Shown here: positions 27,401 through 54,900 of the stretch, piece after piece | Position numbering within the stretch: position 1 is the first letter of the stretch | Layout of the letters: each line of letters begins with the position of its first letter | NCBI GenBank assembly: GCA_949358305.1 | Contig: OX442315.1 | Location: 7,156,427 to 7,220,426 of the forward strand | Direction: 5' to 3' | DNA: 64,000 bases | From: Strigamia acuminata | Taxonomy: Eukaryota; Arthropoda; Chilopoda; Geophilomorpha; Linotaeniidae | The notes under the pieces: model-generated | Databases searched by the model: none | Told to the model about the DNA's origin: nothing | The model's input: the letters and a program-made list of their open reading frames with translations, nothing else | Position numbers and translations under genes: made by a program

Positions 27401-30400
27401 GATTCGACCTGCGCTACGGCGAGACACCCGAAGAGGTGAGCCGAAAGATGCGAGGTCTTCGCCAGATGCCTGGTGAAACCATAATGGATTACGACATTCG
27501 CGCCAGATTGTTGTTCGAAAAGGCCCCGATGGAATTTCATGCCACGGGATTCAACCTTTTCTTTCTCGGCGGTTTGTCGGAATACTCGCAAAGGGTGCTA
27601 CTGGAAGAAAGGGCACCGACAGGAGGCAGCTACGAAGAAATGAGCGCCTTCCTGTTCGAGAACACGATAGATATCGAGAAGAGATATTATTCCGCTTTAC
27701 CAGAAGCGGAGAAAGCAGCAACCGCTAAACGTCTCAAGTTGAGTGCGGAAAGATATGGGGCGACAGATAAAATTATGCGCCCTACTGAATATCTTAGCGG
27801 TATAATGGAGCTGGCAAAAGCTAGCGTTGGTTTACAAATAAAAAATAAACTGACATCCACGCTGCCTTCCAACCCTTTGGCCGCCCCTAAAAAGGCACCG
27901 ACAGCGTCAGCCATGCAAGCGACACTGGAGGAGGTCAAGGAGGGGGAGGAAGCCGAACAAAATGTCGGAAAATCAGACGAAAAAGAAGAAAAAGACGATT
28001 ATTCGACGGACGAAGAAATACGAAGCTATCGCGATACCTTATCAACGGGTTGCGATGAGGAAGGACCGCTAGTACATCTCATCCATCGAGATAGAGCGGT
28101 AGAAGAATTTCGCGCCAGGTTAAAACCAAATGCCAGCCGAATTCCGAAGTATTTTCGGAAAAATTACACGCCACCGTCGAAAGCAGACCCTGAAAAGAAA
28201 AAATCGACTGAAGCCCCAAGAGACAAATCAAATATTCGCTGTTTCAAGTGTAACCAACCGGGCCACTACTCCAACGAGTGCCCAAGAACAGCGAAAGAAG
28301 ACGCGAAGTTTGACGCGATAATGAAGCAGATGGCAGAGATTAAACTCGCCATGGCAAAAAACGAGTCAAAAAACGAGTCAGCGCAGGCGGCGAAGAAATA
28401 ACTTCTCGACCGTCTGCGCCATTCATGAAGAAGAAGGGGTTTAACAAAGGGTTCGATAAGCCGCCACCAGTCAAAGAAATGGGTAGTGACATAGCTAACG
28501 CCCAAATTCAAGACAGGGCCAACAACGCTTTGCAGGTTATTACCGCAAACGCTGAGGTTGAAGCGGAAGAACCGAACCTACTGCTTGAAGAGTTACCTCA
28601 AGCAGTCAACGAGGACACAGAGGAATTTCGTGTTTTCATGTGCAACGTGGCGGTCGAATACACCAACCGCCTATGCATGTTGCCCATGACAATAGAACGC
28701 GAAAAAATTATGGGACTATTAGACTCGGGAGCAGATCGTTCGTTCGTTTCCGAAGACATAGTAGCATCATTGGGTCTCACCGATAAGATAAAAGGCGTTA
28801 ATAAAAATATACGTCTAAAAACCGCCAACGGAATGGCGCGTCCAAAAGGAGTTATATTATTGACCATGGAGTGGCTCGGAGGGGTAGAACAGCACCCTTT
28901 CCTGGTCCTGCCCACATGCGACAGAATTTTTCTGTTGGGCTTAGACCTCATGGCGTCAATGGAAATACAACCAAATCCAATAACGAAATCTTGGAATTAC
29001 ATCAGAAATGATAAGGAAAGACCCGCAATTGTCGTGCCACCAGCTCTTGTAAAAGAAGCGGCCGACAAGACACAGTGGGAGAAAGGCCTAAAGAAATTCG
29101 TTCAAGACTACGATTTTAAAGCATTCGTAACAGAATTGCAACGGGACAATGTAGTGGAAACGCTTGTCGCCGACGCCGCTTTAGAATTAAACGAAGCGGC
29201 AGCCCTACGAAGGGTCCTACTTAAATATGAGGGGATCCTGTCGAAAAAACCGGGCCGAACGAATAGGGCTATTCACGAAATTAAATTGACGGATAATAAA
29301 CCTATACGAGTTGCGTATAAGGGAATGAACCCGCAAAAACGTGAAATAGTGCAAAAAATGTGCCAAGAAATGCTAGACAGTGGCATTGTCTCCGAGGCCC
29401 AGGGAGAATACGCGACGCGAGTTGTGCTCGTTATGCGCCCGGGCTCGGACCCACGCCTATGCATTGATTACCGCCCATTAAACGCGGTGACAGAGATAGA
29501 TCCCATACAGATGCCGTGGTATCGAATCCATTTTGAGAGAGCTTAGCCCCTTTTCTTGGGTTACGACGATGGATCTGTCGAAGGGATACTGGCAGGTTGA
29601 GATGAGGCCAGAGGATAAGCTAAAAACAGCTTTTTACTCGCCAATTGGACGGTTGATGTTCAACGTCATGCCATTTGGTTTAGTGAACGCTCCCAGTACC
29701 TTTCAGAGACTAATCGAAAGTGTATTGGGTGATATCCTGCATCAGTTTGTATGGGCATACCTAGATGACATAGTTATTGCCTCTAAAACATTCGAAGAGC
29801 ACATTGAGCACATCGACCAAGTGCTCACCCGGCTGGCAAAAGCTGGGTTACACGTGCACCCGGGCAAGAGCAAGTTCTGTCGAAAGGAGCTTGCCTTCCT
29901 GGGTTATCGCATTGGAGTCAATGGTTTAGCTATTGGCCCCGAAAAAATCGATGCGATTAATCGTTTCCCACCACCCGAGGACGTTAAAGGTGTCCAACGG
30001 TTTATGGGAATGATAAACTTCTTCGGCAGGTTGCTACCGGGTCTAGCTGAAGTGGCAGCCCCAGTTACCGACCTCCTGAAGAATGAAAACGAATTTGTAT
30101 GGTCAAATGAGTGCAACATCGCCTTTAATGCGATAAAGAGGATGCTGACGGAAGTCGGCGTAATGCCTCTACCCGACCTAAACCGGCCGTTCATATTACA
30201 TACGGACGCCAGCAGAGTTGGGTTGGGAGCCGCGTTGCTTCAAACACACGTGCGCGACGGAGTCGAACAAGACCTGCCGTGCATGTTTATAAGTCGCAAA
30301 CTCCAAGGCGCTGAAAAAAATTACAATGCCACCGAGTTGGAGTGTTTGGCCGTAGTGTGGGCCATAAGGAAATTCAGAGATTATCTCAAATATACCAAAT

Positions 30401-33400
30401 TTGTGGTCCACACAGATCATCAAGCGTTACAATGGCTGATGAAATTAAAGGAGCCAGCCGGTCGACTAGCCAGATGGCAGTTAGAACTGATGGCCTGCGA
30501 CTTGACCATTCAATACAAGCCCGGCAAATATAACGTCGTGGCTGACGCTCTATCAAGGGCACCAGTGTCAGATCCTATCGACGCTGACGATGATGGCGAG
30601 GATGACTCCCGCATCATTTATTGTCCTACGAGTTGTCACCGTTGGGATTTAAGGAAAATGAATGAAATTCCTACCGCGTCTCCGGCAGATGTAAAATTCT
30701 GTGGATTCTGGACGCGGTTATACCAACCAGCTGCTGACAATTACCCAGATGCAAAGAGGGAATTTAAGCTAGAGCGGAGAATAAATGACCCGCTTCTAAG
30801 CGCCTTCCACGCTCGTGTCAGCAAGCAAATGCAAAGCAATCCCCCGACAAGGAAGGAAATAATCGTGCAACAAAAATTAGACAAAAAATGTCAGGACAGA
30901 GCTAGATTCGTACTGACAGGAAAATATCCGCCCAACTTAACCAGAAGGCAGAAGCGTCGTTATGCACACGAATCCATAGATTACCTATTGGATGACGGCC
31001 TTTTGGTGAAACATCACCCAAATCACCAAGATGACTTGAGTGAATCGGACACCGCAGTAAAGGTAGTAATACCTGCTTCCTTAATCGGTCGCGTGCTGTG
31101 GTTGTTACACGGGCACCCGCTTGCGAGCCATGCGGGAGTAAGCAGAACACTCTATCGTGCTACACAGCTTTTTCACTGGACAGGGATGAAAAAAGATATT
31201 GCTCTTATTGTCCACCAATGTCAGCGATGTCAAGCGTGCAAGCCGAGGAGTAAATCACCATTCGAAACTATTTTCTTAGGGCCTTACGCGCCTTTTGATT
31301 GTTTAAGTGTCGATGTGATGGGCCCAAAACCCGTTACGGGAAATAAAAATGCGTACATTATCGTAATAATGGACGTGGCGACTCGTTGGCCCGAGTTGTA
31401 CGCCGTCGCTAGACCTTCAGCAGAGAAAATCGTTGAATGTATATACGACGTGGCGTTACGTTACGGATTTCCACGTAAAATAATATCCGATAACGGACCC
31501 CAATTTATCTCGAAAATTTGGGGTAAGTTTTGTAAAAAATTCGGGATTGTGGCGTCACATACTTCGACCTACAATCCTAGAACAAATCCCGTTGAGCGAC
31601 TCAACAGGGATATCAAATATGCATTAAGTATATTCACTGACATCCACAATAGGTGGGATGAATACTTGAGGGAGATCGCGTTCAGCATACGAACAACAGT
31701 CTCGAGGACGAGAGATTTTTCTCCGGCCTACCTCAACTTCGCCCGAGAGCTACGAGTGCCTTGGGACCCACGAGTGGCAGAGTCGGTAAATGTGGTGGAC
31801 CCAGAGAAACCACATGAGTATGTGTATAAATTGGAGCAAACAATTTCAAACACATACAAGCATATGATGGCGCACATTTTTAACATGCGCGACCGCATTT
31901 TACAAGATAAAAGCGGTGGAAAATTCGTGAATTTCGAGATCAATGATTTGGTGTGGAAAGATGCACACACCCTCTCAAATGCAGCGAGAGGAATCACCGC
32001 CAGCTTGGCCGACAAGAGAGATGGTCCGTATGTGATCATCGGCAAGCATGGCGGTAACGCGTATAAATTACGTAAGCTCGAGGACAATACCGAGCATAAA
32101 TCGATACAAGTACGAGAGTTAACTCCGTACATTCCGGAATTCCCGCAAGAAATGTGGGCCAAAGGCCAAGTCAAGTCTAAAACTGACGGCCAAATCGTCG
32201 ATACGTTCGCTGGCGAGTCGGAACAAGCACCGCCAAGTGACAACGAGGAGTATTTCGACGCCCCTTCACCTCCGGTAAACGAGATAGTTGAATCCGTTCC
32301 GGATCCAATTTTGGTCGGGGGGGAAACAGGAGAAACTCCTGAAACAAACACAAAAAACACGGATAAAAAAGAAAACAATAATGAGGAGGTACAGACACAA
32401 AAAACAACAAAAAACGTCGTACCTGTCTCGACTCATCACCTGCGGCCCCGTGGAAGTAATCCGTTTATAAAAGACGGAAAGGTCGTAGGAAAAGAGTAGA
32501 AAACGTTACGAGTCGATGGCGACGCTGAAAAACAAAAAAAAATTGATCGATCGACAGCGCTAGCCATCAAAATCCGAGACTCTAAAAATTTCGCTAAGTC
32601 CAACAAAGCGGATATCGGTCGAATTCACGTCACAAGATGGCGTGGAAGCGCGGGACCCGTAGCAAAATTATCGGCACGGGTCGGATACCGCGTGCAAAAG
32701 ACCCCGTAGCAGCAATCGCGCACGGGAGTGAAAACAAAGGAGACCCGTAGCGTAACATGCGCACGGGTAAGTGCGCACTAGTCTCAAATACCCGGGTTCT
32801 GGAGTATATTACCCAGAATCCATCGCGATTACCTTGTGTTCACACGGACTTCCGCTTTTCACAGCTGATCGCTGCGTCCGTGCGTGATCCTCGTTTTTAA
32901 CATTTTTACCGAGTTTTTACCGAGTTTTTGAGATAGTTTTATCATCCTTTTTCAATCGTGATTGAGCTTTTTGTGCGCGCTCCTAGCCATGGACGAGGAA
33001 GAGAACGACGTGCTTGCCATCGAGCACGAGGACGAGGCAAACTGGGACCACGATGTAAACCAAGTCCCACCCGATCAGGTAGAAGTCGGCATCGGCACAT
33101 GAGAATTAGTTCCGTGCTGCTGAAGAAGAAATTTTGTTGACTAATACCTGACATGAGTGCTTTGCACTCGCAATAGCGTATAATTAATTATTAACCGCGA
33201 TCGCTCACACGATCGTATTTTTTTCTTGTTAATTTGTTTTCGGGATGCGATCGTAGACTTCACGTCGCCTCGCGTCTCGAAAATTCCTCATGACATGAGT
33301 CACGAGCGAGACAATGGGCTCGAGCCATAAATAATTTTATGACAAGGGGAGAATATTCTGTAAAAGAATATTTTTCTCCACAAGTAATTTGACGCATCGA

Positions 33401-36400
33401 ATTGATGCAACTTAACATTCGTACGATGAATTTTTCGGTGTGTTGGATAAATTTAATTTGACTTTAACTTTTTTAAAAATTAGACAAAGTCCGACTTCGG
33501 AATAATTCTTTATTAGATTTATTTATTTAATACAATTTCGACAAGCACATTTATTGTGCGTTTTTAGTAATAATTTACACCCGACGAATTCTTTTTACGA
33601 ATGACTGATAATTATTAATTTAATTATTAGTAATGTTCTAATTAACGTTAGAATTAATGTGAAGTAAAATCTGATGATAAAAATCCGGATTAAAGGCTCG
33701 ATTCCGTCTCGCTGTGCGTTTTGGACATGAGACAGATTTTTCACGTGATGACTTCTCTTTTTCTATCCGACGAGGGACAATTCGTCCTACGTTTGCACCG
33801 ATAGACAGGAATCGGTCTCGACGGACGGCTGCACGTATCGGCAACGTCCCTCGAAACCAACCATTTATCTACGTATTTAATATTAACTTTTTATTAATTG
33901 TTTATTTCTCCATCCTTCCAGATGGCATTACGTAAGACATGGGGACCATTAGACCCCGCTTGCATCGCTCGTGGCGGGATATTTCGAGGCGCGCTGCCCG
34001 AATTTTACCGACGATGTTTCGGCGAAGACGCCGACCCTTGGCGCCTGCGAATACTACATTCCCGATGCATCGCCCGACGTTGGGTACGAGACTGTACGCT
34101 CCTGGACACGTTCCCGGAGGGGATGCGCGAAGGCATCGCCACAGAGTTAGCTCGTGACGATGACCCGAAATCGCCAATTTTCCACCCCGGTTTGTCAAGT
34201 CAGTACACTGGCAACCCGGCGGAGGAACACGTGCTGTATGCGTGGCAAGCAGCCGAGACAGAAGAGGCCCGTGAGGCCATCTATCAGCAGTATAGGCAAC
34301 AGCTGGTGGATACCGCTACGGCAGTGGCCGAGCGCATCCTCCAAAACGAGGGGATGACCGCGGATGATATTCATCTGTGGTTTGAGAGGCTGCGATTGGG
34401 GGAGAGTGCGCCCCAGTGGAGACCTCGGATGGGAATTTTAACGTCCCAAGCCGAGATGTGGCAGCTCCACCACCTGGGAATTTTGGGGCCCAAGAGCAGC
34501 TACCCGCGGAAGCGCAAGCGCTCCAAAGGCGCCGGGAACAGCCAGTCGCGTTCCCCGGTGACAACCAAGAAGCAGCGTGTCACTCAAAACACGACTGAAG
34601 GCAACGAAGCTGGGCCATCCACTAGTACGGTGCGTGACCCTTCGCAGTATTCCCGACCGCGAATTTTCGTAAACCGTCAGATTAAAGACGGTAAGGAGTG
34701 CAAAGAGGTTTGGATGTCTGGTGACGAAGAGCGAGTCTCTCGTCCCAGCACTTCTAGACGTCCGCTGACTCATCGCGAGCAGCGGAAAAGAGATCGCAAG
34801 GAGCGATACTTCGCGAGATGCGAAGCTCGGGGCCGTCCCATCCCCGAACCCGCCTACATCTCCAAGAGAGCGGGTCGACGAAGTGGTAGCCAGTCAGGTG
34901 AGCGAAACGTCCCAGCGGCAGATACGCGGGACCTTCGCGAGATTCTGACTCAGATGAAGCGGACGAAACTGACACGTTTCGATCCAGCTATGAAACACGC
35001 CAGGAAGATGGGTGTTGTCACCGACGGAATGGTGACCCCACACGAGGTGGCAAGGTGGCTCGCAGACTACATAAATTCGCGACCACGACCCGATGGCATG
35101 CCAACCGCCATCGTGCAGCCCTCGAGCTCCGAACAACATCTCCCGGCGCCCCAAGTCGCAATGACTGGGGTGCAGACGACGGAGACGCCACCACCGCCGA
35201 CGCAGCCGCCACCACCGCTGCCGACGCCGACGCTGCCGACCAAGACGCAGCCGCCTCCGGACCTGCCGCCACCGTCGTTGTTGAATTCGAGCGATCCGCC
35301 GGATTTACCCACCGACCGCTCAGTCCCTCTCCCCGTTGGACAGAGCATTATGCAGGAATGTCGAGCCAATTTGACCGACATTTACAGGCCGAGCCGACCC
35401 CGACCCGGTTCCTCGGCCCTGTTCTTCGAGAGGCGAGACGAAGAAGCGCGACTCGCGAGAGAAGCCGCCAACCCGACTATCTCCGAGCTCTCAGCGTTTC
35501 GCTTCGTGATGGAAGACCCAAGAGTCTCCGCACCCGCCTTGCGAGGTGTGGATCAAGCCCAGCGATATTTCATCGAATGGGCAACGGCGATGATGAGTAA
35601 GCTCTCGTGTGCCTTCACTGCGGATTCAGAGCGATCGAATCCAGTGAATCGTCGCAGCCTACAGCTATCATTGACCAAGGTCATGATGCAGCTGCTAACC
35701 CCAGCACTCTTCGGAGAAGGGCGTCAGGCGATGGCCGCATGGTCTGTCGTGGACAGAGAGGGTGTACAGGTTCCCCGTGCACTCCTCGCAGAGTGGAGCT
35801 CCATTCTGCCCGACCCTGTGTTGACTCGGTACGAGCTAACCAGGGATGTGGTAAACCCCGAATTTGAGGGGTACAAGTTGCGAAGCACGGCGTTTCGTTA
35901 CACCTCCGCCACCTGGACAGCGGCGCCTACCCAACAACTGCGCGCCTTGACCATCCAGACGGAAGAATCGGCAGAGGATGTAGAAATGGTGATCTCGCCG
36001 ACGAGCGGAGTTCCGATTCCGCCACCGATGCCTGCGGAGATATCCCCGCAAGGACCCGCCCTGTTCGAAGTGGCGGGTAAACCAAAGCGCTTGCTGTGCC
36101 GAACGCCACCCGTCAGGTCCGTCGAGCAAACGAAGCCGACACCGCCCGGGACCTCACCGGCCCGAGCGGCGACAACAACGCAAGCAGTGATTCCCGCGGC
36201 CACCCAGAAGCCGAAGCCGGCACCGCCTCCACCAGACTATTATGGGCGAATCATCGACGAGTTTCCCCATCTTTCGATGACGACGGCGACCAGGAGGTTT
36301 ATCCTCGCGCAGCGGGACAAAGGCAAATCGGTCTTCATCTGGCTTCACAACCAGATCCGGAAGACTAAAGACCTCATCTTCCACCAGAGGTTGCTGAGAG

Positions 36401-39400
36401 CCCACCGTGCGCCAGTGACGCCAGCGGAAGCCAATGCCATCCGGCATACGAACACCGGCTTCTCCGCCTACATCCCGAGCGTTTGGTTACACGAGAGGAC
36501 GCGTGCCCCGCATGAGCCAGTTGACGGCCATGCATTATGCTTCATTACGGAGCATGAGGACCCCCGAGATCGGTCCTCGGCGCTAGTAGGCGATCTACCC
36601 GCGCCACCCGGCACTCAACCGCCTGTCCCTGGAGTGAGTTACGCCCAGGTGACGGACTCAGTGTCGGGTCCCCCAGGAAAGAAGTGATCGCTCAGCCCCA
36701 CGGTCTGAGCTCGGAGGGGGAAGTGTTGTGACCCGACTGGACCGGGGTCAACGAAGAGTTTCTCTCGTGACCTCGTTTCGGGTGTAAGGGGAGCCGCAAG
36801 CGCGTCTCCCTTCCCTCAGTGCATTGACATCTAGTCAATGGACAGGCGTCTGCCCTGAGGGAGTGGGGATGGCTCGTCCACCCCACCATTGGGTGATTCC
36901 GGTCACCTGTCAACCCCGCTTTGTGCAAAGGAATGTGCCTTGCACTGAGCGGGCAGAACCAACACAACCACCAAACGAGAAACACACGTAAACCCGTCGT
37001 CCTACAAGATCAGGCCCAAGTAAATATACTGGGATTGACCAAGGACAAAGGACAATTTACCGTGAGTACGTTTGGTCAGTGTCAAACTCCGCAGAGTAAC
37101 CTGCGAGATAAGATTACCACACTATTTTAGCACACCAGCTAGAAATAGTAAAAACCACTCCAGTTTAGCGAGTTGTGCAGACAAACGGTCGCACAAGCCT
37201 AAACTGCAGTAAAACCACGACGAGCGTTCCCGCCGCTGTGTGACCGCCGGGAGCCAGAAGAGTCCGCCGCTGTGTGATCGCCGGACACCACACAAAAACC
37301 TAGACAACAGACCGAAGTAAGCCTTTTAACTAAGCATTCACTCGCGCCTGACCAGCGTGAGCCCGAAGGACCAGCCAGAGACGAGTCGAGGACGCCATAT
37401 TGCCACGCCGGCCCAAGACGACATCACGTTGCCACAACGAGGACGCCATCTTGGACACGCACGAGACAACAGACGACCTCGCCGATTCCAGCCAGCTTTC
37501 ATCTTACCTTTACCTTTCCATTCCCATCACCCATTCCGATTTACCTTTTACTTACCTTTCATATATATATATAAGATATATCTGTACATTGTCCCACAGA
37601 ATAAATCTATATTATATTTTACCTTTTATATCTGTGTAATCATTTCTTTGGGTAAACCGCTTAAGCAAAGCGGTAGTGAGTTAGTCAAATTAAGTAATCA
37701 ACCCACGAGTCAGCGAGAGCGAAGTAGGGGCGCGACACACTTGACGGAAATTCGATCATTAACTGGAAATGCCAGAAACAAGCGATAGTCGCGATGTCGA
37801 GTACAGAGAGTGAGCTCTTGGCACTGACCGAAGGAGTTCGTGAATTAATTTGGTTGAAACAACTCGCGATTGGACTAAATGGAGAAATCGACGACGGAAA
37901 TACCACAACGATGCACTGTGACAGTTTAAACGCGGTGAAACTGTTGCGAGGCGGTGCGCAGAAGACGAGGACCAAGCACTTGAATCGAAAAGTGCATTTC
38001 ATCAAACAAGAGATCGAGGATGGAAACGTTATCGTGGAACATGTCCCAAGCGAGGACATGTTAGCAGACTTTTTGACGAAGCCTTTAGCCGGACCTGCAC
38101 TAAATGGAATACTAGAAGCATTAGGACTAAAGACTGTGGGGGAATAATGACTTTATTGTGTGCAGTGTTCATATTGATTGTTTTTATATAATTGTGTTTT
38201 TGAGAAGTGTTTTTGTGATGAAATCGAATTGTTGATTTTGGGGGAATTTGTTGGGATATTTGATGTGGAAAATCACCACTTGATGTCATTGTGTAATTAG
38301 TGTAGTTTGAGTTTTTTATATCCTGTGGTGACACTCCTACCATATATGGAGTGAACATCCTTACTGTGTTTTTTCCCCACTCATTCACTTGATGTAGAAC
38401 AGTGAGGTTGCTCTAAACTGTATTAAACTTCAACCGTTTTTACTTGATTCATAACAATTGTAACAAGATCGTGCTAATTGTGTCATAATAAAGTAAAAAT
38501 GCGTGCACTATAGTTGTGCAGTTATTTTGACTAGAACTCTAACAGGAAACGGAAATGGAAACCAGCGCTATCTTTTGATGGGAATTTACAATGCCACGAT
38601 GGCAAAGATTTCGCATCAAGAGATGACGCTGGAACAGCCCTTCCCTATTCAGACAAACAAACGTAGTGGAAATCAAAATAACAATAAAAATTACGAATAG
38701 TTCTACTTTGCGGCTGTTACTGCTATGCCTATTTCTAAATTATGTTAGTGTCCTACCTGCGCCATTTCAAAATTTTCCACGTCACCTGTTGCTTCCCATA
38801 ATTCAGCAGAGTCATTTGCATATTCAGATGGAAAATCAAGTAGATCTAACAAGTCAACATTTTCAGCACGATTAACATTTAGCTTTTTGTGTTGCATCAT
38901 GTTTTCTTTTTCATCTAGTATTGATTCAGGGTAGCTGCACACAACAAAATCTGGAATTTGGATAAATCTGTCTTGACGAAGTTCTATGGTTGCGTATACA
39001 GGATAATCAAAGTAAGTGGTGATTCGAAAGTACATGAAGAAGCAACATGGCAGGAGAGAACACAATATGACAAATTTTTCAATGTTTTCAGTAGTCTTAG
39101 ATTGTGACGAGACACTTTGGTAACTGCCATTGGTTGTTGCCTTCCATAAATGTTTAGTTTTCCGCATGACATGTTTTTCAAAATGACTTTTCTTCTTTCT
39201 GTAGTAATTAGCTATTTGATAACCATTTTGAATGTTCAGAGCAATGACTTCAACAATTGCAATACAAGATATTCCTATATAGAATCCCATGTAGCCACCA
39301 ATGTCACACATTAATGAAATAAAATCATAACAAAAAAATTCTGTTAATTCAAGTGTCCTGCTGGATAAGTAATAAAAACTCAAAGTAGCTGTGTACTGAT

Positions 39401-41657: not shown

Positions 41658-42675
41658 GATTGACACCCGTTTGCAACAATGTGTGTGTCTAATCTTGCTG
41701 ATCTAGGATATCTGCTGTGAATACATGCAAGATTGCACTGAATTCAACCAATTATTTGCACATACACATGTGTACACTTTTTAGTTTCTCTTACCTTATC
41801 TTGTTGTGTGGCAAAAGGTCAGCAGCAGAACGTATCGAGGCAAAATGATAACTGTGGGGATTTGGGAACGTTTGTGGTAAATATTTGCTCGTTCTGATTA
41901 TGTTTTTTCTGATTTTAATTAGATTTTATTACGTCTATATTAATTTTATATGTTTCGTAGAACTGAAAGTGTGTGTTGCTAATAACACGTCTCATGTTTA
42001 CTCTAACAAATCAGTCAATAGAAGTTTGTTTACTTATCATTCCATTACCAACTTAATTAATTTTTGCGAAATTCTTGTTTACTTAATAGATTGCTCTATT
42101 TGAAGCATATAAAAAACTCAATTCATGCAATTATATGCAGTTATTTTGAAACTTATGTCAGTGGCAGCCGTGCTTGTATTTTATACCACTTAACTAGTTC
42201 CATGTTTGCTTCAAGCATAATGGCTGACACCATGTTATAAGTCTCGATGCCTTCTGCTTCCGTCTACATCTTCTAGAAAGTCGTCGACATAGCGCATTAG
42301 ATTCAATAAGTGTCGGAATGTATTTGACAATCATTAATGCTCAATATTTCTAAACTATAGTAGGTACTAATAACGTTTTAATTCGTCCTTCAGTAATGAA
42401 TAAATTTTAACAACAAAAGATCCGAAGGTTTTTCAATGGAGCATCCATTTCAATGAAATTTGTACACTCTATTAAAGATAATAAATGCCTCTAAATTTAA
42501 TTCTGTAATTTTACAATGTATTTCTACAGATAAAATCAAACTTTGTTCATATCTGGTTTTAGAATTATAACTTTGTATCAAAAGTGGTGATTTAATTGTG
42601 AAATGTAGTTAGATTTTATTAAAAAAAAATTAAATGTTACCACCTTATAGTTTCAAAATACTTGCATTTTGTAAT
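41658..42675. other. intergenic region upstream of DEG/ENaC and downstream of LRR copy B
   Basis: No gene is seen. 42380-42475 contains scraps resembling the LRR coding sequence (AGGTTTTTCAATGGAGCATC) and 42490-42660 the conserved LRR 3' flank. The channel gene promoter should be near 41700-41850, but no clear TATA box was identified. Confidence 0.5.
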
Positions 42676-44043
42676 CTATTCTTCCAGTGTCGTCTGCACA
42701 TCCAAATTTTTACTTTTGACATAACCGTTAATTGCATCACAAGCTGAAGTATCAATATTAGGACAGCCAATGACGGTTAACTTATTCATCGGATTTTGCA
42801 GACCTAACAATTTAATTATCGAAGATGAAGTAATATAGGGACAAAGTGTAAAAATTAAAACTTTGAGATTTTGTAGCGCATCCGATTCAACAAGCTCCGA
42901 AATTAAATCGTCAGTAACTTCCATCCCACAATCAGTAAAGTATAATTTTTCTAAACCTTTACGTTGTACCAAAAACGTTTTCATTTCTTGTTCAGTAATA
43001 AGTGGAGTTCTACAGACGAAATGCAGTTTACGAAGGTTTTTCAACGGCGCATCAACAATACCATCATTTTTATCGAAAATCGTACAATCTAATAATGATA
43101 ATTTCTCTAACATTGGGAAAGCGTGATCAATAAGTTCAACATTAACCGGCCAAACTGCACATAGATGGACAGTTATCACATGTTGAGGCCATATTGTATT
43201 ACTGGAATCCAGATGACTTTCGACATTTGACAACCGTAAGCATTTTAAATTCGGAAAAATGTTTCTCAGCATGGGAATATGTTTGTTATTATTTATGTAT
43301 GGAACTTTCTCGATGGAATAAGTGCGTGTATTTGTCCGTTTTTCCAACTTAAGAAACAGTCCGAGCCAATTACTATGTGCAAACACTTTTAAATTGGGCA
43401 GTTGGTTGAGAAGGAACAAACACCCATCAACTGTGGCACAAGTTGCCCCAATATTTAAATACTCCAGTTTGACGCAAAAGCTTAAGGTCCCGAGCCCCAT
43501 GTCCGTAAGTTTGTAGCAACAAAAAAGGTTGAGATGTGTCAAGAGTGGACAATTCTTTGCGATCGCAGCGGCAACTTCATCCGTGAATTCATTCGTATAC
43601 ACAATGTCTAAACGTTGAAGCTTCGGTAAACTTTGCACCAGTTTGATTTGGGATTCAATCGCCATTTCTTGATCTTCAAAATCTCCAAAAACATCCAAAT
43701 CTTCCGCTGAATCTTCCGAATCGCTCGAATCTCCAAAAAGGTTTACTAAACTTAAAGCCACAAGGTTTTTACACATTTTTCCTATTTTATCGTAAAGAGA
43801 AGGCATGGTCGTACTAAACAGATCCAAATGGTGCAGTGATACGGCGCGGGGATGAATAAAAATGTTGGCAGGCAAACGTCGATCAGTGCGTTCAAACTTC
43901 ACACACAGTTTTTCAAATATGTCGTTGATAAGCACGGGCGGTAAGCTTACCAGTTGACCTTGCATCTGCTTCTCTTCAAAATGATTAATCACAACGTCTA
44001 AACACAATTCTTCCAGACTCGAAGCTGATTTCCGGCGTGGCAT
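42676..44043 (-). CDS. LRR protein with BC-box and Cul2-box-like motifs, copy B
   Basis: 455 residues in one exon, apparently intact. The N terminus SLEELCLDVV (residues 9-18) fits the elongin BC-box pattern (S/T)LxxxCxxx-hydrophobic. About 20 residues later LPPVLINDI fits the Cul2-box pattern hydrophobic-PxxhxxxH (h, H hydrophobic). The layout then matches VHL-box LRR proteins such as ZYG-11/ZER1: leucine-rich repeats of the LTHLNLFCCYKLTDMGL type up to the C terminus, with an acidic insertion (SSDSEDSAEDLD) near residue 105. Such proteins select substrates for CUL2-RBX1 ubiquitin ligases. The neighbouring divergent gene encodes RBX1 itself. The motif match is by eye; an F-box-LRR protein is the alternative. 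Confidence 0.78.
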   Translation of the reverse strand: MPRRKSASSLEELCLDVVINHFEEKQMQGQLVSLPPVLINDIFEKLCVKFERTDRRLPANIFIHPRAVSLHHLDLFSTTMPSLYDKIGKMCKNLVALSLVNLFGDSSDSEDSAEDLDVFGDFEDQEMAIESQIKLVQSLPKLQRLDIVYTNEFTDEVAAAIAKNCPLLTHLNLFCCYKLTDMGLGTLSFCVKLEYLNIGATCATVDGCLFLLNQLPNLKVFAHSNWLGLFLKLEKRTNTRTYSIEKVPYINNNKHIPMLRNIFPNLKCLRLSNVESHLDSSNTIWPQHVITVHLCAVWPVNVELIDHAFPMLEKLSLLDCTIFDKNDGIVDAPLKNLRKLHFVCRTPLITEQEMKTFLVQRKGLEKLYFTDCGMEVTDDLISELVESDALQNLKVLIFTLCPYITSSSIIKLLGLQNPMNKLTVIGCPNIDTSACDAINGYVKSKNLDVQTTLEE

Positions 44044-44393
44044 GTCGACAGTGTCGGTCAGATGCGAATGATAAAAGCCTTCAACAATTTCTTTTCAAGA
44101 GCGAAACGTTAACGGTTGCGAATGATTGAATCGGCTTGAACCGGTGAGATCGAACAGTGATTGGTCAATGGCGTAATACTATTTCTATTTCTATGTCAGT
44201 TTGAAATCGTACGAAATTTGCAGTCAGCACGCTAAGGGAACGTTTTCTTCTTTCGACCAATCAGTAACGTTCGCTTTGGTCTTGCTTATTACACTCTCCA
44301 GTATAATACAATTGATCGCATTCGAATTTCATTCAAACAATCTTCCGTCTTTGTGTTCGTTCTTGCATTTATTTCTTCTACAGATCGTTCTTT
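44044..44393. promoter_or_regulatory. shared divergent promoter region, LRR copy B / RBX1
   Basis: Only 350 bp separate the two start codons. It holds an ATTGG (44160-44164) and a CCAAT (44257-44261), an inverted pair typical of bidirectional promoters. TTCTTCTACAG at 44374-44384 could be the acceptor of a 5' UTR intron of RBX1. Confidence 0.55.
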
Positions 44394-45046
<653 letters not shown>

Positions 45047-46063
45047 TTGTTGTCTATGCGTGGCTAGCCGTGCATCCCCGAAGAGTAGATGTAAATTGTA
45101 ATGGATAATTTCTTGTTTTAAATCATAGTAATAATAAAATAAAAAAATGTACCGTATTAGGTAGGTTTTATTATAAAGGTTTGATGTTGTGGTTTCAATT
45201 CAATGGTTTTTATCAAACAAGTTTCAGACAAAGTGTTTTAAATGTGGTGTTTTAATTGTAAAATACAGTTAGATTTCATTCTAAAAATTAAATAAATAAA
45301 TAAATGTTTTTAAGTATGTTTTTTAAGTAATGAATGCACTGTTGCAATTAAAATGAGCAATATTTTAGATGAATGTCATTTTGATTTATTTTAATTGCAG
45401 CTAATATTAATTTATACATTAAAATTACATTTTGAGTGAATTTTAATTTTTAAAACCCTTTATATTAAACTATCTTTTATCTATTTTTGCTACTAATAAA
45501 TGCAGTGTTGCAGCTAAAATACCATTTCATAATAAATGAATGAAGGCTGCTATTTGTCAAATTTTATTAAAAATTGATCATATTTTCCACAAGTCATAAA
45601 AAAAAAAATTGTACTTGTCAAAATTCATGGGCATGTACAGTACTCTGAATATGAAAAATCTGGTTCTGGAATTATTCTAAATTAACAAATTGATGTTTAC
45701 ATTTTACTGTGTAGGAGATTTTATTTACTGCGGATTAATTTTACAGCGCGACAGATTGTTATCTACTTTTTAAGTGCAAATGCAAGTTTTGCCTCTTGAC
45801 ATAACTTTAAATTTCGTCATAAGGTGAAGTGTCCACATTTTTATAAATTCAAATCCAACGATAAGCCAGGAAGAAGTTCAACCTGCAAGTCCAAAATTTT
45901 TACTTTTAACATAAAAATTCTAAAATTTTCAGACACTCGATATAAGAAGTTCCAAAATTAAATCGTCAAAACGTATTTAATAATTTTCAATGCAAATTAA
46001 CAAGTACCGTTGGATTGTAAATGGGATTATATTTACTACAGTTTAGTTTTACATATACATTTT
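45047..46063. pseudogene. AT-rich region with decayed LRR-family 3' ends
   Basis: 45235-45300 resembles the 3' flank of LRR copies A and B. About 45775-45990 repeats, in degraded form, the minus-strand LRR C-terminal coding sequence and its 3' flank (TTTTGCCTCTTGACATAAC and TTTTACTTTTAACATAA segments). No open gene remains. Confidence 0.5.
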
Positions 46064-46481
46064 TTAATAGTTAAATAATTGCAATCGATCTGTTAAGTTT
46101 AAATCCAAGTTTTGACTTTTGACATAACTTTGAATTAAAACATAAGCTGAAGCGTCAATCTTTCTACAATGCCGTATGCATAGCTGAGTGAGTGGATTTT
46201 GCATTCCCAACACTTTCATGATGGAAGTGGGACTAATAGAGTGGCAACAGTAAAATTCTAAAGTTTTCAATCTGGAAAGTTGTGAAATCAAACTCAAAGG
46301 GAGGTCCGTTGGGAAACCAACCAAGACCAATTTTTCTAAACTTTTACGCTCTACCAATAATGTTTTCATTTCTTGTATTGTAATTAAGCCTAAATGCTCT
46401 AACCGCAGTTGACGTAGGTTTTTCAACGGAGCATTAATAATGTTATCAGTTTCATCGGAAATTGTACACCATCTTAAGCTT
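46064..46481 (-). pseudogene. LRR protein copy C, 3' fragment broken by Gypsy-2
   Basis: The last 130 or so codons of a third LRR paralogue. APLKNLRQLRL, EMKTLLVERKSLEKL and SYVKSQNLDL match copy B at its C terminus. The frame runs unbroken to the Gypsy-2 LTR at 46482; the upstream part of the gene is not in the window and presumably lies beyond the other end of Gypsy-2. Confidence 0.82.
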
Positions 46482-47110
46482 GTCGTGATTCGACTTTGTG
46501 GTTAAAGATAATAAATAATAGTACTCGGGAAATACAATATAAGATATAATACTGCTTTATTAAATACGCTTACTAATACAGTAAAGGTTAAGGTGATTCC
46601 AATGATGGTCCTCGGATTCTTCTGCGAATACGAGTCGCCGCTAAACAATGGTAGTTCCTATTGTTTAGTCCTACGCGTGGTCTGTGTTGTTGTCTAGGGT
46701 TATTTCCACGTGTTATAACGAACACGCGAGAATTCGCTTTCTCGTGCGAATTAAACGAATATCGCTTGGATATTTATTCTAGCGTAGTTTGGCTACGCTA
46801 AATAAATGTGGCTGTTGTACAGTTGAATGGTCAGCGGGCACCGGTCCTCGATCAATCCGTGAAACGGCCTGAAAGGTGAGGTAGATGGTGCTCTTGCTGA
46901 AATGTGGTAACTGTAGTGTATATCCGGTCAAGCGTTGGCGTTATATATTAGCCGGAAATGACGTCATATGCAAATCCTTCTGATTATGCAGGTTCGCAGA
47001 AACACGAGACTAGTCAGTCTAGTCGGTATTTCTAGCGCGCTCTAGTGGCGAGGATTAATAACATGATAATCGCCGCTAATTACTTCTTCAGGTGATGCCG
47101 AATCACCACA
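46482..47110 (-). repeat. 3' LTR of Gypsy-2
   Basis: 629 bp. On the plus strand it begins TGTCGTGATTCGAC and ends GAATCACCACA; short inverted ends with TG and CA. AATAAA (minus strand) at 46556-46561. The possible target duplication is AAGCT at 46477-46481; the other end is not visible. The adjoining tract CTCGGGGAGGGACG (minus strand, 47111-47124) is the polypurine primer. Confidence 0.8.
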
Positions 47111-47304
47111 CGTCCCTCCCCGAGAATAAATCATCGGGGCCCCCCTTTAAAATAAAAGGTGGAACAATATCTAATCATAAAATAATCTTTTTATTAAAGG
47201 ATGATGAATGATGAATAAAATGTTTTACATTCTCGAAATTGATACATAAATAGTTTCTTGGTTCTTTAGGGAAGACAGTCTTCTCGTCTCGAATTTGCAA
47301 TCGA

Positions 47305-50300
47305 TTATTTCTTCAAGTTATCGGCGTAACTTGGCTTATCTTCCGAACTTGGTTCGTCCAGGTTGGGAGATGTGGTCAATCTTGAAGAGTAGTCCGAGGG
47401 ATCTTCGCTCTCATTTAAGTAGAAACGCAGGTGTCCCGGCGCCTCCAGCGGATTTCCCGTTCGTTCGTGGGCCCAAATCGGTGGCAGGAAGGCCGACATA
47501 CCTTGATTGGTGTGGTGGATTCTTTGGGCTTCGGCGATGCTGGTTGGCGCGCGATGCGCTCGGAGGAGCCGTTGATGTTGGATGAAGCGATCGTCTCCGG
47601 CTCCGGCTTCAATAGCATCCTTCATCCAGACGTAAAGAGAATAGCCACGGTCTGGGGTCTGGAGTAATTTTGTTTCAGTGTCCTTCGTCAAGGACAACCC
47701 CGGGAAGTACATCCGGAGTCTGGCGGCGATCTGAGGTTCTGCCGTCTTGGAAGCCTTCATGTTCGATTTTGGGCGGAGCAACTTTCCTTTCGTTCCCTTC
47801 TTTTTGAGCGAGACTGGATCGGCCAGTGGCTCGGGAGGTCTATTTTCCTTCGGTGGAGGCGGAGGAGGAGGTGTCGGATCCCTGGGAGCCGGAGTTTCCA
47901 CGACTGGTGTGGTCACCGAAGATGACGGAAGCGGATGTTGGATGATCGCTCGAACGTTTTGGTAAGAGGCCTCTGGATCCGGGTCCTGGGCCACCATTTG
48001 GGCTCGAATTATTGCCGCGGAGGGCACTAGGCGTGTCCAGCTGTCTACGAGAGCCGGCGGGACTTGGAAACCCTCGTGGGCCACTACGATCCAGGCTGCT
48101 ACAGCGACACGCGCGTTTCGGAAGGTGGCGGCGGCCAGTAAAATCGACATCAAGTCGGTAATGGCAACCACGATCCTCGTATTCCAATTTGGATGATCCC
48201 GATTCCTGTTCTGCGTATATTCAATCGAGATCCGCTGAAGATTCGAGATGACGTTCTGGATCACGTTTTGTTGGTACGAATCCATTTCGCACAACAGTGC
48301 TCTGGCCTGCTCCACGGTTGTGACGTCCAGAAATTGTTGCAGCGTTACCTCCGACGGGTTGACTGGAGTCGAGGCTTGGATGACTGCTGGGGCTGGCAAC
48401 ATTGGATTGGGTCCCGCGGATGTCGTTGGCTGAGGCACAGATCTGACCAGACGTCTTGATTTTTCCGGTTCGGGCTTGTCCCAAACAATTGGAGTTCTCG
48501 TTGAAGTTGAAGCTTCGGGGATCGTTGGGAGAGGTTCGACTTTGGCTGGTCCAAAGCGAGCTTCTCGATGTTTGAGTTGTTCTTCAGAACTCAGTGTCGG
48601 TGCGCCGATTATTACTTTCTTGCGAAAGGCGCTTGGGAGGCTGACGCTGGATGTTACGCTTCTCGTCTGCGAGAGTTCCGGCTTGATGAAAGCGCTTGGC
48701 GCCGTCTCTAGACTCGAGGCGGTCGAGGGAGTCGGGCGGTAGACTGGTTTGGGCTGCAGTTGCTGGTATTTCATAACTACCGCGAGGAGATCCGCCTGAG
48801 TATACATCTTCTTCTGCTCGGGGACCTCGTCGATAATTACCTCGTCGTCGATCTTCATTGGTTCGGGACTGTCCCGAATTGATCGTGTGTTTTCGTAGCG
48901 TTTCCTATCTCGCTGTCGTATTTCCTCTTCACGATACGCTTTCCACGAACGTGTGCGACTCTCCGATCCTCTTCTTCTTCGTTCGTCTTGTAGACGGAGG
49001 TTCTCTCGTTCACGTCGGGCTTTCTCATCACGTTCGCGTAGGAACTCTTCTCGGTGTCTGTTCCACGCTTCTCTGTTTTCCTCCCGCCGTCTGAAGTAAT
49101 TTCTACGATAATCGTTCCAATCTTCTTGGTTCCTATCGCGTCGGCGTTGATCTTCTCGGCGGTCGGGGAGTTCGCGTACACTTTCTCTTCTACGGCTGGT
49201 TGACGGGGCGTCCCTCGATCGAAATCGCGATGTTTGTAGGGCCTCCGTTTTTTCTAGGCGAGAGAAAGCGCTTGGTTTGGCCAGGCGTTTCTTTGTCGCG
49301 GGTATCTTACTCTGCGCGCTGCTGGAAGTGCTTGGCTTGTCCAGGCATTGTTTCTTTGCTGAACAGCCTCCTTCGTCGTGCTCGTTGGAGAGACGTTTCT
49401 CAGCCTTCTGGCGTTTGCGACCAAAGAAACCTAAAAAGTGTAATTGGTGCATTGCTCGCTGCGAGGAAATAAAACCGTGTCTTGGCCTCCAATCTGGGCG
49501 GTCGGGTCGATCGTCTTGGATTTGTTGGAGCCAAATCTTAATTTCCTCGGTCGAGTAACCGTCCGGCTGCAAATAATCGAAAACTTCGTCATGCGCGGTT
49601 CGTCTCACTTCTTCGTAATACGCCATATGAATCTGGTGTTTTTCTTCATCTGTTTCGGCGTCGCGCCACTGTTCGTAAACATCCCATCCTCGCTGGTTGT
49701 CGGGGAAGGCGGCTCGGATTAGTGGATTCGGGATTGGCGCTGGTGGGTCCATGTTTCTTGAGATAACTGCCCGTAATGCTGCTTGGTATTGGCGTGGCAT
49801 GTAGTGGATCAACGTTTGCTGGCTGGACCAGTAGCGGCTGATCGCACGAGACAATAATAGGCGAATCTTCCATGGTTCAAAGTTGACCGATTCTTCGAGC
49901 GCTTGTCGGAACAGTATGGGGATGACTTCTCGCCATAAGCTGCCTGCGGAAACTCTTTTCGGGTCGATTTGTCCCCACGTAGTGCGATATCCGTCCTAAA
50001 TATAAGAATATTAATGAATATATTAGGATCGTTGATTAATTTGTCATATTTTTCTCTAGAGATTCTTTCGTCTAACACAAGATGGCGTCATGGTCGGCCA
50101 TGTGCTTTTCGACCACGTGTCTTGAAGTTACTTTTTCTTTCGGTGTTTGATTAATTTTGACGATTCGTCACTTAAAGTTAAATTATTTCTTCGTTCGTGG
50201 TCAGTCCACGAACTTATTTCGTATTTTTGATTCTCGATAATTGAATTTTTTCTATTTTTTACTTACGTCGGGTTGGACATCGGGTTCATTGGGTTCGTCC

Positions 50301-50419
50301 CAATTTCCCTCTTCGTTGTTTACGACTATTTGTAACAACTCCACTTGTTCTTCATCGTCATCCTCGGAAGCGTTGTTTACGGCCCGTTCAATTTCTTTCT
50401 TCCAATCATTTCTTTTCAT
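47305..50419 (-). CDS. ORF3 of Gypsy-2: spliced homologue of Gypsy-1 ORF3
   Basis: Exon 1 (50419-50267) encodes 51 residues (MKRNDWKKEIERAV, then an acidic stretch with GNWDEPNE) and ends GAC|GTAAGT. The intron is 271 bp with acceptor TTATATTTAG at 49996-50005. Exon 2 (49995-47305) gives 947 residues in total. No ATG explains the conserved start of exon 2 (YRTTWGQIDP), so splicing is required. Conserved with Gypsy-1: TWGxx[49 protein letters not shown] and FLPPIWAHERT. Between the N-terminal and middle blocks lies an Arg/Glu-rich region (about residues 260-370), and a Pro-rich stretch PTPPPPPPP follows. No membrane segment is visible. Function unknown. Confidence 0.82.
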
Positions 50420-52287: not shown

Positions 52288-52289
52288 TG

Positions 52290-54193: not shown

Positions 54194-54900
54194 CGTGGAG
54201 GTCCCACCGAGATTAGGTTGCAATTAAATTCGATTGAATTGCAACAGTGAATATTGGAGATAAATATTTAACTAAAAGATTTAAGTTAAAAATAGACAGA
54301 TTAAATTTTCAGTTTATATTTCCATGTGAAGAAGTTAAACTGATGAAATAGAAATACGTAGTAGATTTTCCTTCATTATTTTCGTTTGAAGATTTTAGGG
54401 ATTTCAAAGACTACCACCTAATCTCACACGTGGAGGTCCCACCGAGATTAGGTTGCAATTAAATTCGATTGAATTGCAACAGTGAATATTGGAGATAAAT
54501 ATTTAACTAAAAGATTTAAGTTAAAAATAGACAGATTAAATTCTCAGTTTATATTTCCATGTGAAGAAGTTAAACTGATGAAATAGAAATACGTAGTAGA
54601 TTTTCCTTCATTATTTTCGTTTGAAGATTTTAGGGATTTCAAAGACTACCACCTAATCTCACACGTGGAGGTCCCACCGAGATTAGGTTGCAATTAAATT
54701 CGATAGAATTGTAAAAGTGAATTTTGAGATAAATATTTAACTAAAAGATTTAGTTAAAAAACAGACAAGTTTCAAACCATGTTTATTTTCTTGAGAAACA
54801 CCAAAACAGTCCTTTAACTAGGAATTTCGGAAGTTATAGACCTATCACACGATCACTGAAATAGGTTGCAAATTAATTCGATCGAATTGCAAAAGCGAAT
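54194..54900 (+). repeat. triplicated primer-binding region, 235-bp tandem repeats
   Basis: The primer site TGGAGGTCCCACCGAGATT (complement of tRNA-Gln 3' end, about one mismatch) is at 54196, 54431 and 54666, exactly 235 bp apart. Units 1 and 2 are nearly identical, unit 3 is diverged, and a remnant of a fourth lies near 54840-54990. Each primer site is followed by the near-palindrome TTGCAATT...AATTGCAA. In units 2 and 3 the site sits between CCTAATCTC and GAGATTAGG, which can pair. Confidence 0.85.

Follow-up and report, generated by a model that had tools for sequence, protein, structure and literature searches.

ORF3, a gene that lies 3' of integrase in two Gypsy elements of the window (the whole 64,000-nucleotide stretch of Strigamia acuminata DNA that was analyzed), is a genuine accessory gene that is conserved in several of the genome's Ty3/Gypsy lineages. 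It matches no known family in the searches run and may belong to a system like that of the nematode CERV protein, here in arthropod elements.

Structure of the gene and its carriers

The sequence-only reading had placed an ORF3 with a single intron downstream of integrase in both Gypsy-1 and Gypsy-2, and this predicted layout is borne out. The predicted sizes of 951 (Gypsy-1) and 947 residues (Gypsy-2) and the intron lengths of 843 and 271 nt were reproduced, both introns being in phase 0, as was the short acidic exon followed in both elements by a large exon with TWGxxDP near its start. In both elements the T-W pair falls at exon 2 residues 6-7, placing TWG five residues in. The span 32989..50419 is bounded by the first exons of Gypsy-1 and Gypsy-2 and includes unrelated sequence between the two elements.

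32989..33078, plus strand: Gypsy-1 ORF3 exon 1, 30 codons, net charge -12
33079..33921, plus strand: Gypsy-1 ORF3 intron, phase 0, 843 nt, GT donor at 33079, AG acceptor ending at 33921
33922..36687, plus strand: Gypsy-1 ORF3 exon 2, 921 aa and stop
50267..50419, minus strand: Gypsy-2 ORF3 exon 1, 51 codons, net charge -12
49996..50266, minus strand: Gypsy-2 ORF3 intron, phase 0, 271 nt
47305..49995, minus strand: Gypsy-2 ORF3 exon 2, 896 aa and stop

Among 39 further Gypsy-1 copies, exon 1 keeps both its initial M and its reading frame in 38, the GT donor is present in all 39, and the AG acceptor in 38. The conserved splice sites, together with the contrast in indels between exon and intron, support the predicted splicing of ORF3 only indirectly. 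Exon 2 starts without an ATG in Gypsy-2 and Gypsy-4, so the N-terminal block there depends on the splice. Stop-to-stop frames, mostly of 1091-1095 aa, were considered as longer ORF3 proteins and rejected, as they extend back into the intron in the two copies read, L061 and L063.

The carriers are Ty3/Gypsy LTR retrotransposons, with LTRs, a gag with a CCHC knuckle, and the order protease, reverse transcriptase (RT), RNase H, and integrase. For Gypsy-2, LTRs are present, the integrase was found with Pfam and the protease and RT with tblastn, and a gag was found in locus L009 by similarity to the Gypsy-1 gag and by weak, sub-threshold zinc-knuckle matches. The Gypsy-2 3' LTR matches L009:3304-3933 at 100% over 630 of 631 bases, the latter presumably being the other LTR of the element. 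An insert interrupts the Gypsy-2 pol.

24232..25246, plus strand: Gypsy-1 5' LTR, ends approximate, 99.7% identity to 36724-37738
25288..28398, plus strand: Gypsy-1 gag frame (Pfam Retrotrans_gag, CCHC knuckle)
28344..29543, plus strand: Gypsy-1 protease frame (Pfam gag-asp_proteas / Asp_protease_2)
29500..32496, plus strand: Gypsy-1 RT, RNase H, and integrase frame (Pfam RVT_1, RT_RNaseH, Integrase_H2C2, rve)
36721..37738, plus strand: Gypsy-1 3' LTR, ends approximate, from the LTR pair comparison
50641..52317, minus strand: Gypsy-2 integrase part of pol (Pfam Integrase_H2C2, rve)
46481..47111, minus strand: Gypsy-2 3' LTR, approximate

Conservation, selection, and probable exchange

The exon 2 similarity between Gypsy-1 and Gypsy-2 is far beyond chance, with about 250 N-terminal residues matching at 124 bits (E 4e-33, 29% identity) and 122 C-terminal residues at 99 bits (44%). 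For exon 1, the similarity is weak between Gypsy-1 and Gypsy-2 (score reached by 28 of 2000 shuffles) and clear between Gypsy-1 and Gypsy-3 (0 of 2000). ORF3 is distributed more widely than first noted, being found in at least four lineages with the addition of Gypsy-3 and Gypsy-4, all in the same genome and all with two predicted exons and a phase-0 intron. The overall size is about 900-985 aa, the exon plan is preserved down to 27% protein identity, and 135 positions are identical across eight copies. Hundreds of ORF3 copies are present in this single arthropod genome; the frame is free of stops in 36 of 39 Gypsy-1 copies and in 49 of the 51 top-scoring Gypsy-2 copies. TTAGG arrays at the beginning of contig C1 and the presence of an ASC-channel gene likewise point to an arthropod.

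The proposal that selection has kept the conserved blocks agrees with the omega values, each computed across a whole gene or long block, which indicate strong purifying selection, at 0.09-0.18 between diverged copies. Omega is 0.09-0.14 among five Gypsy-2 copies, 0.11 between Gypsy-2 and the Gypsy-2 subfamily copy L067, 0.11-0.15 among three Gypsy-4 copies, and 0.10-0.18 within the Gypsy-1/Gypsy-3 set; among Gypsy-1 copies it is 0.23 (ratio of means), and between Gypsy-1 and the recombinant L020 it is 0.26.

In the pairs compared, ORF3 divergence is 1.3 to 12 times that of pol, and ORF3 has therefore probably been exchanged between elements by recombination. No published description of ORF3 was found among the titles and abstract openings covered, in a literature collection with few subscription journals. 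The pattern suggests that an undescribed accessory gene can be swapped among retrotransposon lineages that, where compared, have near-identical pol. Divergence faster than that of pol would also fit an arms race or changing partners if ORF3 were another kind of nuclear factor, one that counters silencing, regulates transcription, or guides integration. We regard this as a possible, if somewhat unlikely, alternative, since these whole-gene or long-block ratios indicate purifying selection in every comparison with no sign of positive selection, and Pfam gave no DNA-binding domain at its cutoff, only sub-threshold matches.

Searches for related proteins

ORF3 has no Pfam family at the cutoff, the matches being sub-threshold (GDSL, E 0.12 and 13.4 bits against a cutoff of 32.9), no PDB match, and no relative among viral contigs. 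In a set of 5.8 billion proteins, Gypsy-1 exon 2 had no match at E 0.001 and a five-sequence ORF3 alignment none at E 0.1 (among the best 7993 and 7992 candidates by shared words, respectively), and the Gypsy-2 C-terminal block had none at E 1. Absence from this set is weak evidence because the search had no positive control and eukaryote coverage is uncertain. The libraries searched (Pfam, PDB, and the large protein set) thus gave no match to an env, host, or other protein family, so that this possible objection to the sequence-only reading did not materialize.

The idea that ORF3 was captured from the host and has some unrelated activity has a precedent in bdelloid rotifers, whose LTR elements have captured enzymes as ORF3; according to PMC5408684, non-envelope ORF3 types are common to different retroelements there. 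The rotifer ORF3 is a GDSL esterase, a DEDDy exonuclease, or env-like, whereas the Gypsy ORF3 described here has no Pfam family. The lack of a database match and of a recognized catalytic domain counts against a captured gene, which we consider very unlikely, although these negatives are sequence based and the two AlphaFold models are both of low confidence (mean pLDDT 39.8 and 51.9).

The env of errantiviruses such as gypsy and ZAM is a third gene after pol that is expressed through splicing, as predicted for ORF3 too, and ORF3 could accordingly be an entry or cell-to-cell transfer factor, either a very diverged env or a protein like sORF2/FAST. Unlike errantivirus env, ORF3 has no conserved membrane segment and, in Gypsy-1, -2, and -4, no hydrophobic N-terminus, as judged from hydropathy. 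One stretch reaches a mean hydropathy of 1.84 in Gypsy-2 and L067, but in the six other copies the maxima lie at just 1.07-1.49, and the best 11-residue mean near the start is at most 0.77 in Gypsy-1, -2, and -4 and 1.29 in Gypsy-3. Also counted against env are the single RRRR site in Gypsy-2, the absence of RX[KR]R from Gypsy-1, and the low numbers of N-glycosylation motifs, 3 and 2 in the two elements.

The accessory sORF1 and sORF2 of the Drosophila MDG1 group resemble ORF3 in being conserved ORFs of env-less insect Gypsy elements, sORF1 being nuclear (PMC11952523). By the description in that source, they differ in size (about 110 and 70 aa), lie upstream of gag, and have full-length transcripts with no evidence of splicing. 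The definition used for sORF2/FAST-like proteins specifies 63-107 aa, one membrane helix, and a myristoylation motif; ORF3 is far larger, at about 900-985 aa, with no conserved membrane helix. A transfer function is therefore highly improbable.

The idea of a second capsid protein finds no support in the form of a gag copy recognizable by sequence, which was rejected on BLASTP against the elements' own gag (E 0.73 and 5.1), and ORF3 has no zinc knuckle. A component of the particle in a wider sense, such as a matrix-like or additional capsid protein or an internal partner for Pol, would fit the env position that ORF3 occupies and a derivative that lacks exon 1, the intron, and the N-terminal half of ORF3. 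The derivative is found in 19 places with exact junctions and in 15 of 150 scored rows; in the one copy read, the Pol frame runs on from its end into the C-terminal half of ORF3, giving a single frame of 1838 aa. However, a fusion is in frame by chance one time in three, the derivative may propagate in trans, and a particle role leaves the basic cluster described below and the intron unexplained. We consider it quite unlikely.

Protein blocks and motifs

33922..34506, plus strand: N-terminal block of Gypsy-1 exon 2, starting with TWGxxDP, predicted to be mostly helical (low-confidence model, mean pLDDT 52)
34507..34575, plus strand: basic NLS-like cluster of Gypsy-1, a motif reading only
35455..35886, plus strand: middle conserved block, Gypsy-1
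36232..36591, plus strand: C-terminal conserved block, Gypsy-1

All eight compared copies have a basic cluster after the N-terminal block. A leucine-rich NES-like stretch occupies the same alignment position in 8/8, and in four of them one key position is a tyrosine; both the NLS and the NES are motif readings, for which false-positive rates are high. Exon 1 has a net charge of -11 or -12 in each of the eight, and the combination of such an acidic exon with a basic cluster further on would also suit a nuclear factor acting on silencing, transcription, or integration.

Intron retention and conserved intron elements

Among genomic copies, no spliced junction was found against 180 unspliced junctions for Gypsy-1 and 90 for Gypsy-2, giving 270 unspliced sites and no precisely spliced copy. 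This suggests that the RNA copied back retains the intron, and an intron-retaining RNA would create a need of the kind that CERV meets in Cer1. The absence of intron-less copies is also expected if the intron is never spliced.

33079..33147, plus strand: predicted stem including the 5' splice site, Gypsy-1 (RNAalifold on four sequences and single-sequence folds)
33155..33169, plus strand: predicted intron hairpin, Gypsy-1 (RNAalifold alignment columns 77-91)
50193..50213, minus strand: predicted intron hairpin TTCGTGG/CCACGAA, Gypsy-2, common to Gypsy-4, one pair broken in 3/9 copies
50078..50108, minus strand: conserved intron element of Gypsy-2 and Gypsy-4, CATGG/CCATG inverted repeat and CGCCATCTTG
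32633..32642, minus strand: CGCCATCTTG motif upstream of Gypsy-1 exon 1

The 31-nt intron element has two differences between Gypsy-2 and Gypsy-4, though their ORF3 proteins are only about 50% identical. Some of the conserved intron elements are perhaps hairpins. Two inner pairs of the stem are broken in Gypsy-1, and in the 33155..33169 hairpin both bases of two pairs differ between Gypsy-1 and Gypsy-3. Covariation is slight: both partners have changed in 2/57 and 1/14 predicted pairs, some of the remaining pairs cannot form in at least one sequence, and the energy contributions from covariation (+0.31 and +0.09) lend the folds no support. Fold z scores were -4.05 for the L068 intron, -3.79 for the first 200 nt of the L061 intron, -1.88 for the first 200 nt of the Gypsy-1 intron, and -0.91 for the Gypsy-2 intron alone. 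In our own window scan (60 shuffles), nearly the same L068 stretch scored only -2.2; the scan's baseline is itself below zero (mean of -1.98 over Gypsy-1 exon 2), and its scores differ in size from those of the fold tool and are comparable within the scan only. Exon 2 windows fold as low as the intron or lower, so the folding is not intron specific. Rfam gave two matches on 32400-34000, far below the gathering scores.

The motif CGCCATCTTG, which we take to be YY1/Pho-like, is found in LTRs and the Gypsy-2 intron as well as ahead of Gypsy-1 exon 1. This distribution suggests that some of the conserved intron may act at the DNA level, which would count against an export role; control of this kind would suit ORF3 as a nuclear factor of the transcriptional or silencing-related sort.

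A possible role in RNA export

We tentatively favor the reading that ORF3 is a Rev-like nuclear regulator, comparable to CERV, that exports unspliced genomic RNA. One intron would probably be removed from the ORF3 mRNA between the short acidic exon and the large exon, and full-length genomic RNA would retain it. Protein made from the first spliced mRNA would act in the nucleus on the element's own RNA, binding unspliced genomic RNA, perhaps via the intron absent from the spliced mRNA, and the bound RNA would then be exported with its intron, to be translated and packaged, as with CERV in Cer1 and Rev in HIV. Rev is far smaller than ORF3. What has been observed is an open frame that is homologous between families and under selection, with conserved splice sites, introns retained in genomic copies, a basic cluster, and conserved intron elements; splicing, nuclear location, RNA binding, and export are inferred.

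The likeness to HIV Rev/RRE, a viral protein exporting unspliced RNA (PMC10309623), would be one of logic. According to the same source, CERV is likewise an extra, non-env protein of a Gypsy-type LTR element, Cer1 of Caenorhabditis elegans, with a candidate NLS and NES; it is made from a spliced mRNA and Cer1 genomic RNA keeps the intron, while for ORF3 splicing is predicted and the introns are retained in genomic copies. The two are likened by description only: CERV has 517 aa and five exons, exons 1-3 in the gag frame, whereas ORF3 has about 900-985 aa in two predicted exons after pol (PMC10309623). A cysteine-rich loop is required for concentration of CERV on nuclear genomic RNA (PMC10309623), and no such loop is apparent in Gypsy-2 ORF3, which has three cysteines in the 896 aa of exon 2 and none in exon 1. 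This counts against an export role, as does the lack of an RNA-binding or other domain recognized by Pfam. The apparent exchange of ORF3 speaks against an RNA-specific partner, unless the target travels along or is shared. The amplified derivative also counts against export, though protein from other copies could serve it.

A more specific arrangement is rather unlikely: a Rev-like system of arthropod Ty3/Gypsy elements that uses the intron of the regulator gene itself as the response element, with the switch moving between elements by recombination. If true, splicing would both yield the exporter and remove its target, so that unspliced genomic RNA alone would be exported. The nuclear exit of intron-bearing RNA in non-retroviral LTR elements has been detailed in few cases, CERV of Cer1 being the one found here, and this large, strongly selected, and apparently spliced third gene may offer a second, testable export system.

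ORF3 and its host elements

ORF3 lies between pol and the 3' LTR in both Gypsy-1 and Gypsy-2, with the coordinates and predicted sizes (951 and 947 residues) assigned in the sequence-only reading, and it is very probably a real protein-coding gene with the predicted intron.

24232-37738, plus strand, Gypsy-1, LTRs 99.7% identical to each other
32989-33078 and 33922-36687, plus strand, exons 1 and 2 of Gypsy-1 ORF3
50419-50267 and 49995-47305, minus strand, exons 1 and 2 of Gypsy-2 ORF3

The predicted introns share their position, as had been claimed, both being phase 0 and placed five residues before the TWG of exon 2. The two proteins encoded by exon 2 are homologous, aligning with 124 bits in the N-terminal part and 99 bits in the C-terminal part. 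Gypsy-1 exon 2 has an ATG directly behind the acceptor, from which translation could begin without splicing, whereas exon 2 of Gypsy-2 and of a further lineage, Gypsy-4, has no such ATG and its N-terminal block depends on the splice.

LTR elements are abundant in the 237.5-Mb genome searched. Gypsy-1 carries gag with a CCHC knuckle, protease, RT-RNase H and integrase. The pol of Gypsy-2, on the minus strand, is split at 52288-61931 by another LTR-type insert; gag and the presumed 5' LTR of this element are found outside the window, in locus L009. The insert is flanked by two identical 1906-bp direct repeats, and its 501-aa frame (57929-59431) reached no Pfam family at the cut-off. Nested copia-type elements occupy 13405-24292, one with identical 547-bp direct repeats (16410-16956 and 22968-23514). 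Leucine-rich-repeat-like frames at 5838-7136 and 42679-44094, with similar frames on the minus strand of L009, share 71% DNA identity and give weak, sub-threshold LRR matches, perhaps representing a lineage-specific gene family. An ASC-type channel gene is present, and contig C1 has TTAGG arrays at its start.

ORF3 in further lineages

ORF3 is common to Gypsy-1 and Gypsy-2, as proposed, but is not limited to these two families, since a survey of related Gypsy elements found it, with a predicted phase-0 intron, in Gypsy-3, Gypsy-4 and a Gypsy-2 subfamily. The searches of the genome used short C-terminal pieces as queries and scored 150 candidates each, so that all counts are lower bounds. The recombinant copy L020 provided the route to Gypsy-3, whose C-terminal part has 90-100% identity in 110 of the 150 matches listed; the other 40 have 59-61%, several being already-known Gypsy-1 places. 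The Gypsy-2 piece found subfamilies at 71-80% and reached Gypsy-4 at 54-56% in 40 of the 150 matches listed.

All seven representatives (L061, L062 and L063 for Gypsy-3; L064, L065 and L068 for Gypsy-4; L067 for the Gypsy-2 subfamily; the partial copy L066 being excluded from counts) have an acidic exon 1 and a predicted phase-0 intron bounded by a GT donor and an AG acceptor, with T-W at residues 6-7 of exon 2. Across eight ORF3 sequences, L063 being omitted as a near-duplicate of L061, 135 alignment positions are invariant and the exon 1 net charge is always -11 or -12. Exon-2 identity is 27-29% when the Gypsy-1/3 group is set against the Gypsy-2/4 group and rises to 49-50% for Gypsy-2 against Gypsy-4. 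Exon 1 alone is clearly similar between Gypsy-1 and Gypsy-3 (0 of 2000 shuffles reach the score) and weakly similar between the groups (14 to 118 of 2000).

Selection on the ORF3 protein

The claim that selection keeps the protein is borne out by dN/dS, with omega at 0.09-0.26 in the copy and family comparisons made: 0.09-0.14 among five Gypsy-2 copies (dS 0.16-0.32, dN 0.016-0.037), 0.11-0.15 for Gypsy-4, 0.11 for Gypsy-2 against L067, 0.17-0.18 for Gypsy-1 against Gypsy-3 (dS 1.43-1.49) and 0.26 for Gypsy-1 against L020.

The Gypsy-1 set consists of 39 copies besides that of the window, the best DNA matches, which were aligned. Gypsy-1 and Gypsy-2 copies were top-scoring, which biases the following counts to intact copies and affects omega less: the exon-2 frame is uninterrupted in 36 of 39 Gypsy-1 copies (broken in L035, L038 and L049), the donor GT is present in 39, the acceptor AG in 38 (exception L019) and an in-frame exon 1 starting with M in 38 (exception L021), while 49 of 51 scored Gypsy-2 copies have no stop. 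Exon-2 lengths shift from the window copy in multiples of three, save in the broken L038 and L049. Copy-level indels are not multiples of three in 67 of 74 intron cases and in none of three in exon 1; for exon 2 this holds for 6 of 12 aligner pieces, yet the sums per copy are multiples of three.

Variants were counted in 36 Gypsy-1 sequences (the window's and 35 others, leaving out L020, L021, L038 and L049). Pairwise over 36 Gypsy-1 sequences, mean dS is 0.039 and mean dN 0.009 (ratio 0.23). In exon 2, 45 synonymous and 29 non-synonymous variants recur in at least four copies, none of them a stop (pN/pS 0.21); 31 and 26, respectively, are found in two or three copies (0.28), and 70 and 77 are singletons, one of them a stop (0.37). 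For exon 1 the totals are 10 and 10, too few to subdivide.

Intron retention and conserved intron elements

Spliced ORF3 junctions, searched genome-wide with up to 3 mismatches, number 0 for Gypsy-1 and 0 for Gypsy-2, against 180 and 90 unspliced exon-intron junctions, indicating that the reverse-transcribed RNA retains the intron. Such a pattern would be expected if a spliced mRNA is subgenomic and never copied back, but also if splicing does not occur at all.

The intron is not inert. A 31-nt element near its 3' end differs at two positions between Gypsy-2 and Gypsy-4 in nine of nine aligned sequences. Such conserved elements might act as RNA structure: in Gypsy-2 and Gypsy-4, a hairpin close to the 5' end includes one pair in which both bases differ between the two lineages and one pair that is broken in three of nine sequences; in Gypsy-1/3, the first 200 nt of the intron contain a predicted hairpin in which two pairs have both bases replaced, and a predicted stem enclosing the splice donor, some of its pairs being broken in one sequence. 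However, doubly changed pairs amount to three in total, the covariation terms are unfavourable, and exon 2 has windows of equal or greater stability. Alternatively, the conserved sequence might have a DNA-level role, in line with the 10-nt motif CGCCATCTTG, which has 10 copies in the window where 0.10 are expected, one of them in the Gypsy-2 intron.

4678, 13320, 16670, 23228, 24952, 32633, 37444, 50078, 52543 and 60281, copies of CGCCATCTTG

Seven of the ten copies belong to LTRs, or to direct repeats resembling LTRs, of elements unrelated to one another (three in Gypsy-1 LTRs, four in two other direct-repeat pairs); one is upstream of Gypsy-1 exon 1 on the opposite strand and one immediately before a copia gag frame. 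Being copies of repeats, they are non-independent and represent about six separate settings. The motif, which resembles a YY1/Pho site, may be a shared promoter motif.

Probable exchange of ORF3 between elements

Between Gypsy-1 and L061, dS is 0.127 in the pol C-terminus and 1.47 in ORF3 exon 2. Among five Gypsy-2 copies, dS is higher in ORF3 than in integrase in 10 of 10 pairs; the ratio is 1.3- to 1.8-fold for six of them and 4.8- to 8.4-fold for the remaining four, and is largest for L053/L054, with 0.019 in integrase (read as L057/L058) against 0.160 in ORF3. L067 and Gypsy-2 are 99.6% identical in an integrase stretch and 88.7% in ORF3, and L020 follows Gypsy-1 up to about 34.6-34.7 kb, beyond which it is 25-43% diverged and Gypsy-3 matches. 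The simplest reading of these sequence contrasts would be recombination.

Separately, Gypsy-2 50640-50010 (intergenic stretch, exon 1 and intron) shows only about 1-5% divergence among the five copies, whose synonymous divergence goes up to 19% for integrase and 32% for exon 2; either constraint or recombination could explain this.

A Pol-ORF3 fusion derivative

The ORF3 C-terminal block lies inside an 1838-aa frame in 15 of the 150 matches listed. The one fusion copy read, L050 (G000:C1:31454800-31462800), is a Gypsy-1 derivative with about 2.8 kb deleted from the pol end to mid exon 2, so that Pol continues in frame into ORF3 residues 447-921. The deletion junction is found without mismatch at 19 places (L050 and 18 more), pointing to a single deletion that was then amplified. 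A derivative that has lost exon 1, the intron and the N-terminal half of its own ORF3 can thus spread, possibly aided by intact copies.

Potential function of ORF3

ORF3 matches neither env nor any other protein in Pfam, the PDB, a large protein set and viral contigs, and has no conserved membrane helix, in agreement with the earlier view that it is not an envelope gene. A hydrophobic N-terminus is absent from Gypsy-1, Gypsy-2 and Gypsy-4 ORF3; the one hydrophobic stretch (1.84), in Gypsy-2 and L067, has no counterpart in the other lineages, whose maxima are 1.07-1.49. At the level of sequence, ORF3 is not recognisable as a gag copy.

Among the functional analogues found, CERV comes closest: this accessory protein of the C. 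elegans Gypsy-type element Cer1 is made from spliced mRNA and is required for unspliced genomic RNA to reach the cytoplasm (PMC10309623). ORF3 resembles it as an apparently spliced third gene with a retained intron, a basic NLS-like cluster and an NES-like stretch, whereas the cysteine loop of CERV is not apparent; the likeness is one of situation and does not place ORF3 in a named accessory-protein family. By this analogy our leading, though tentative, suggestion is that ORF3 made from spliced mRNA would promote nuclear export of the unspliced genomic RNA, as CERV does in Cer1.
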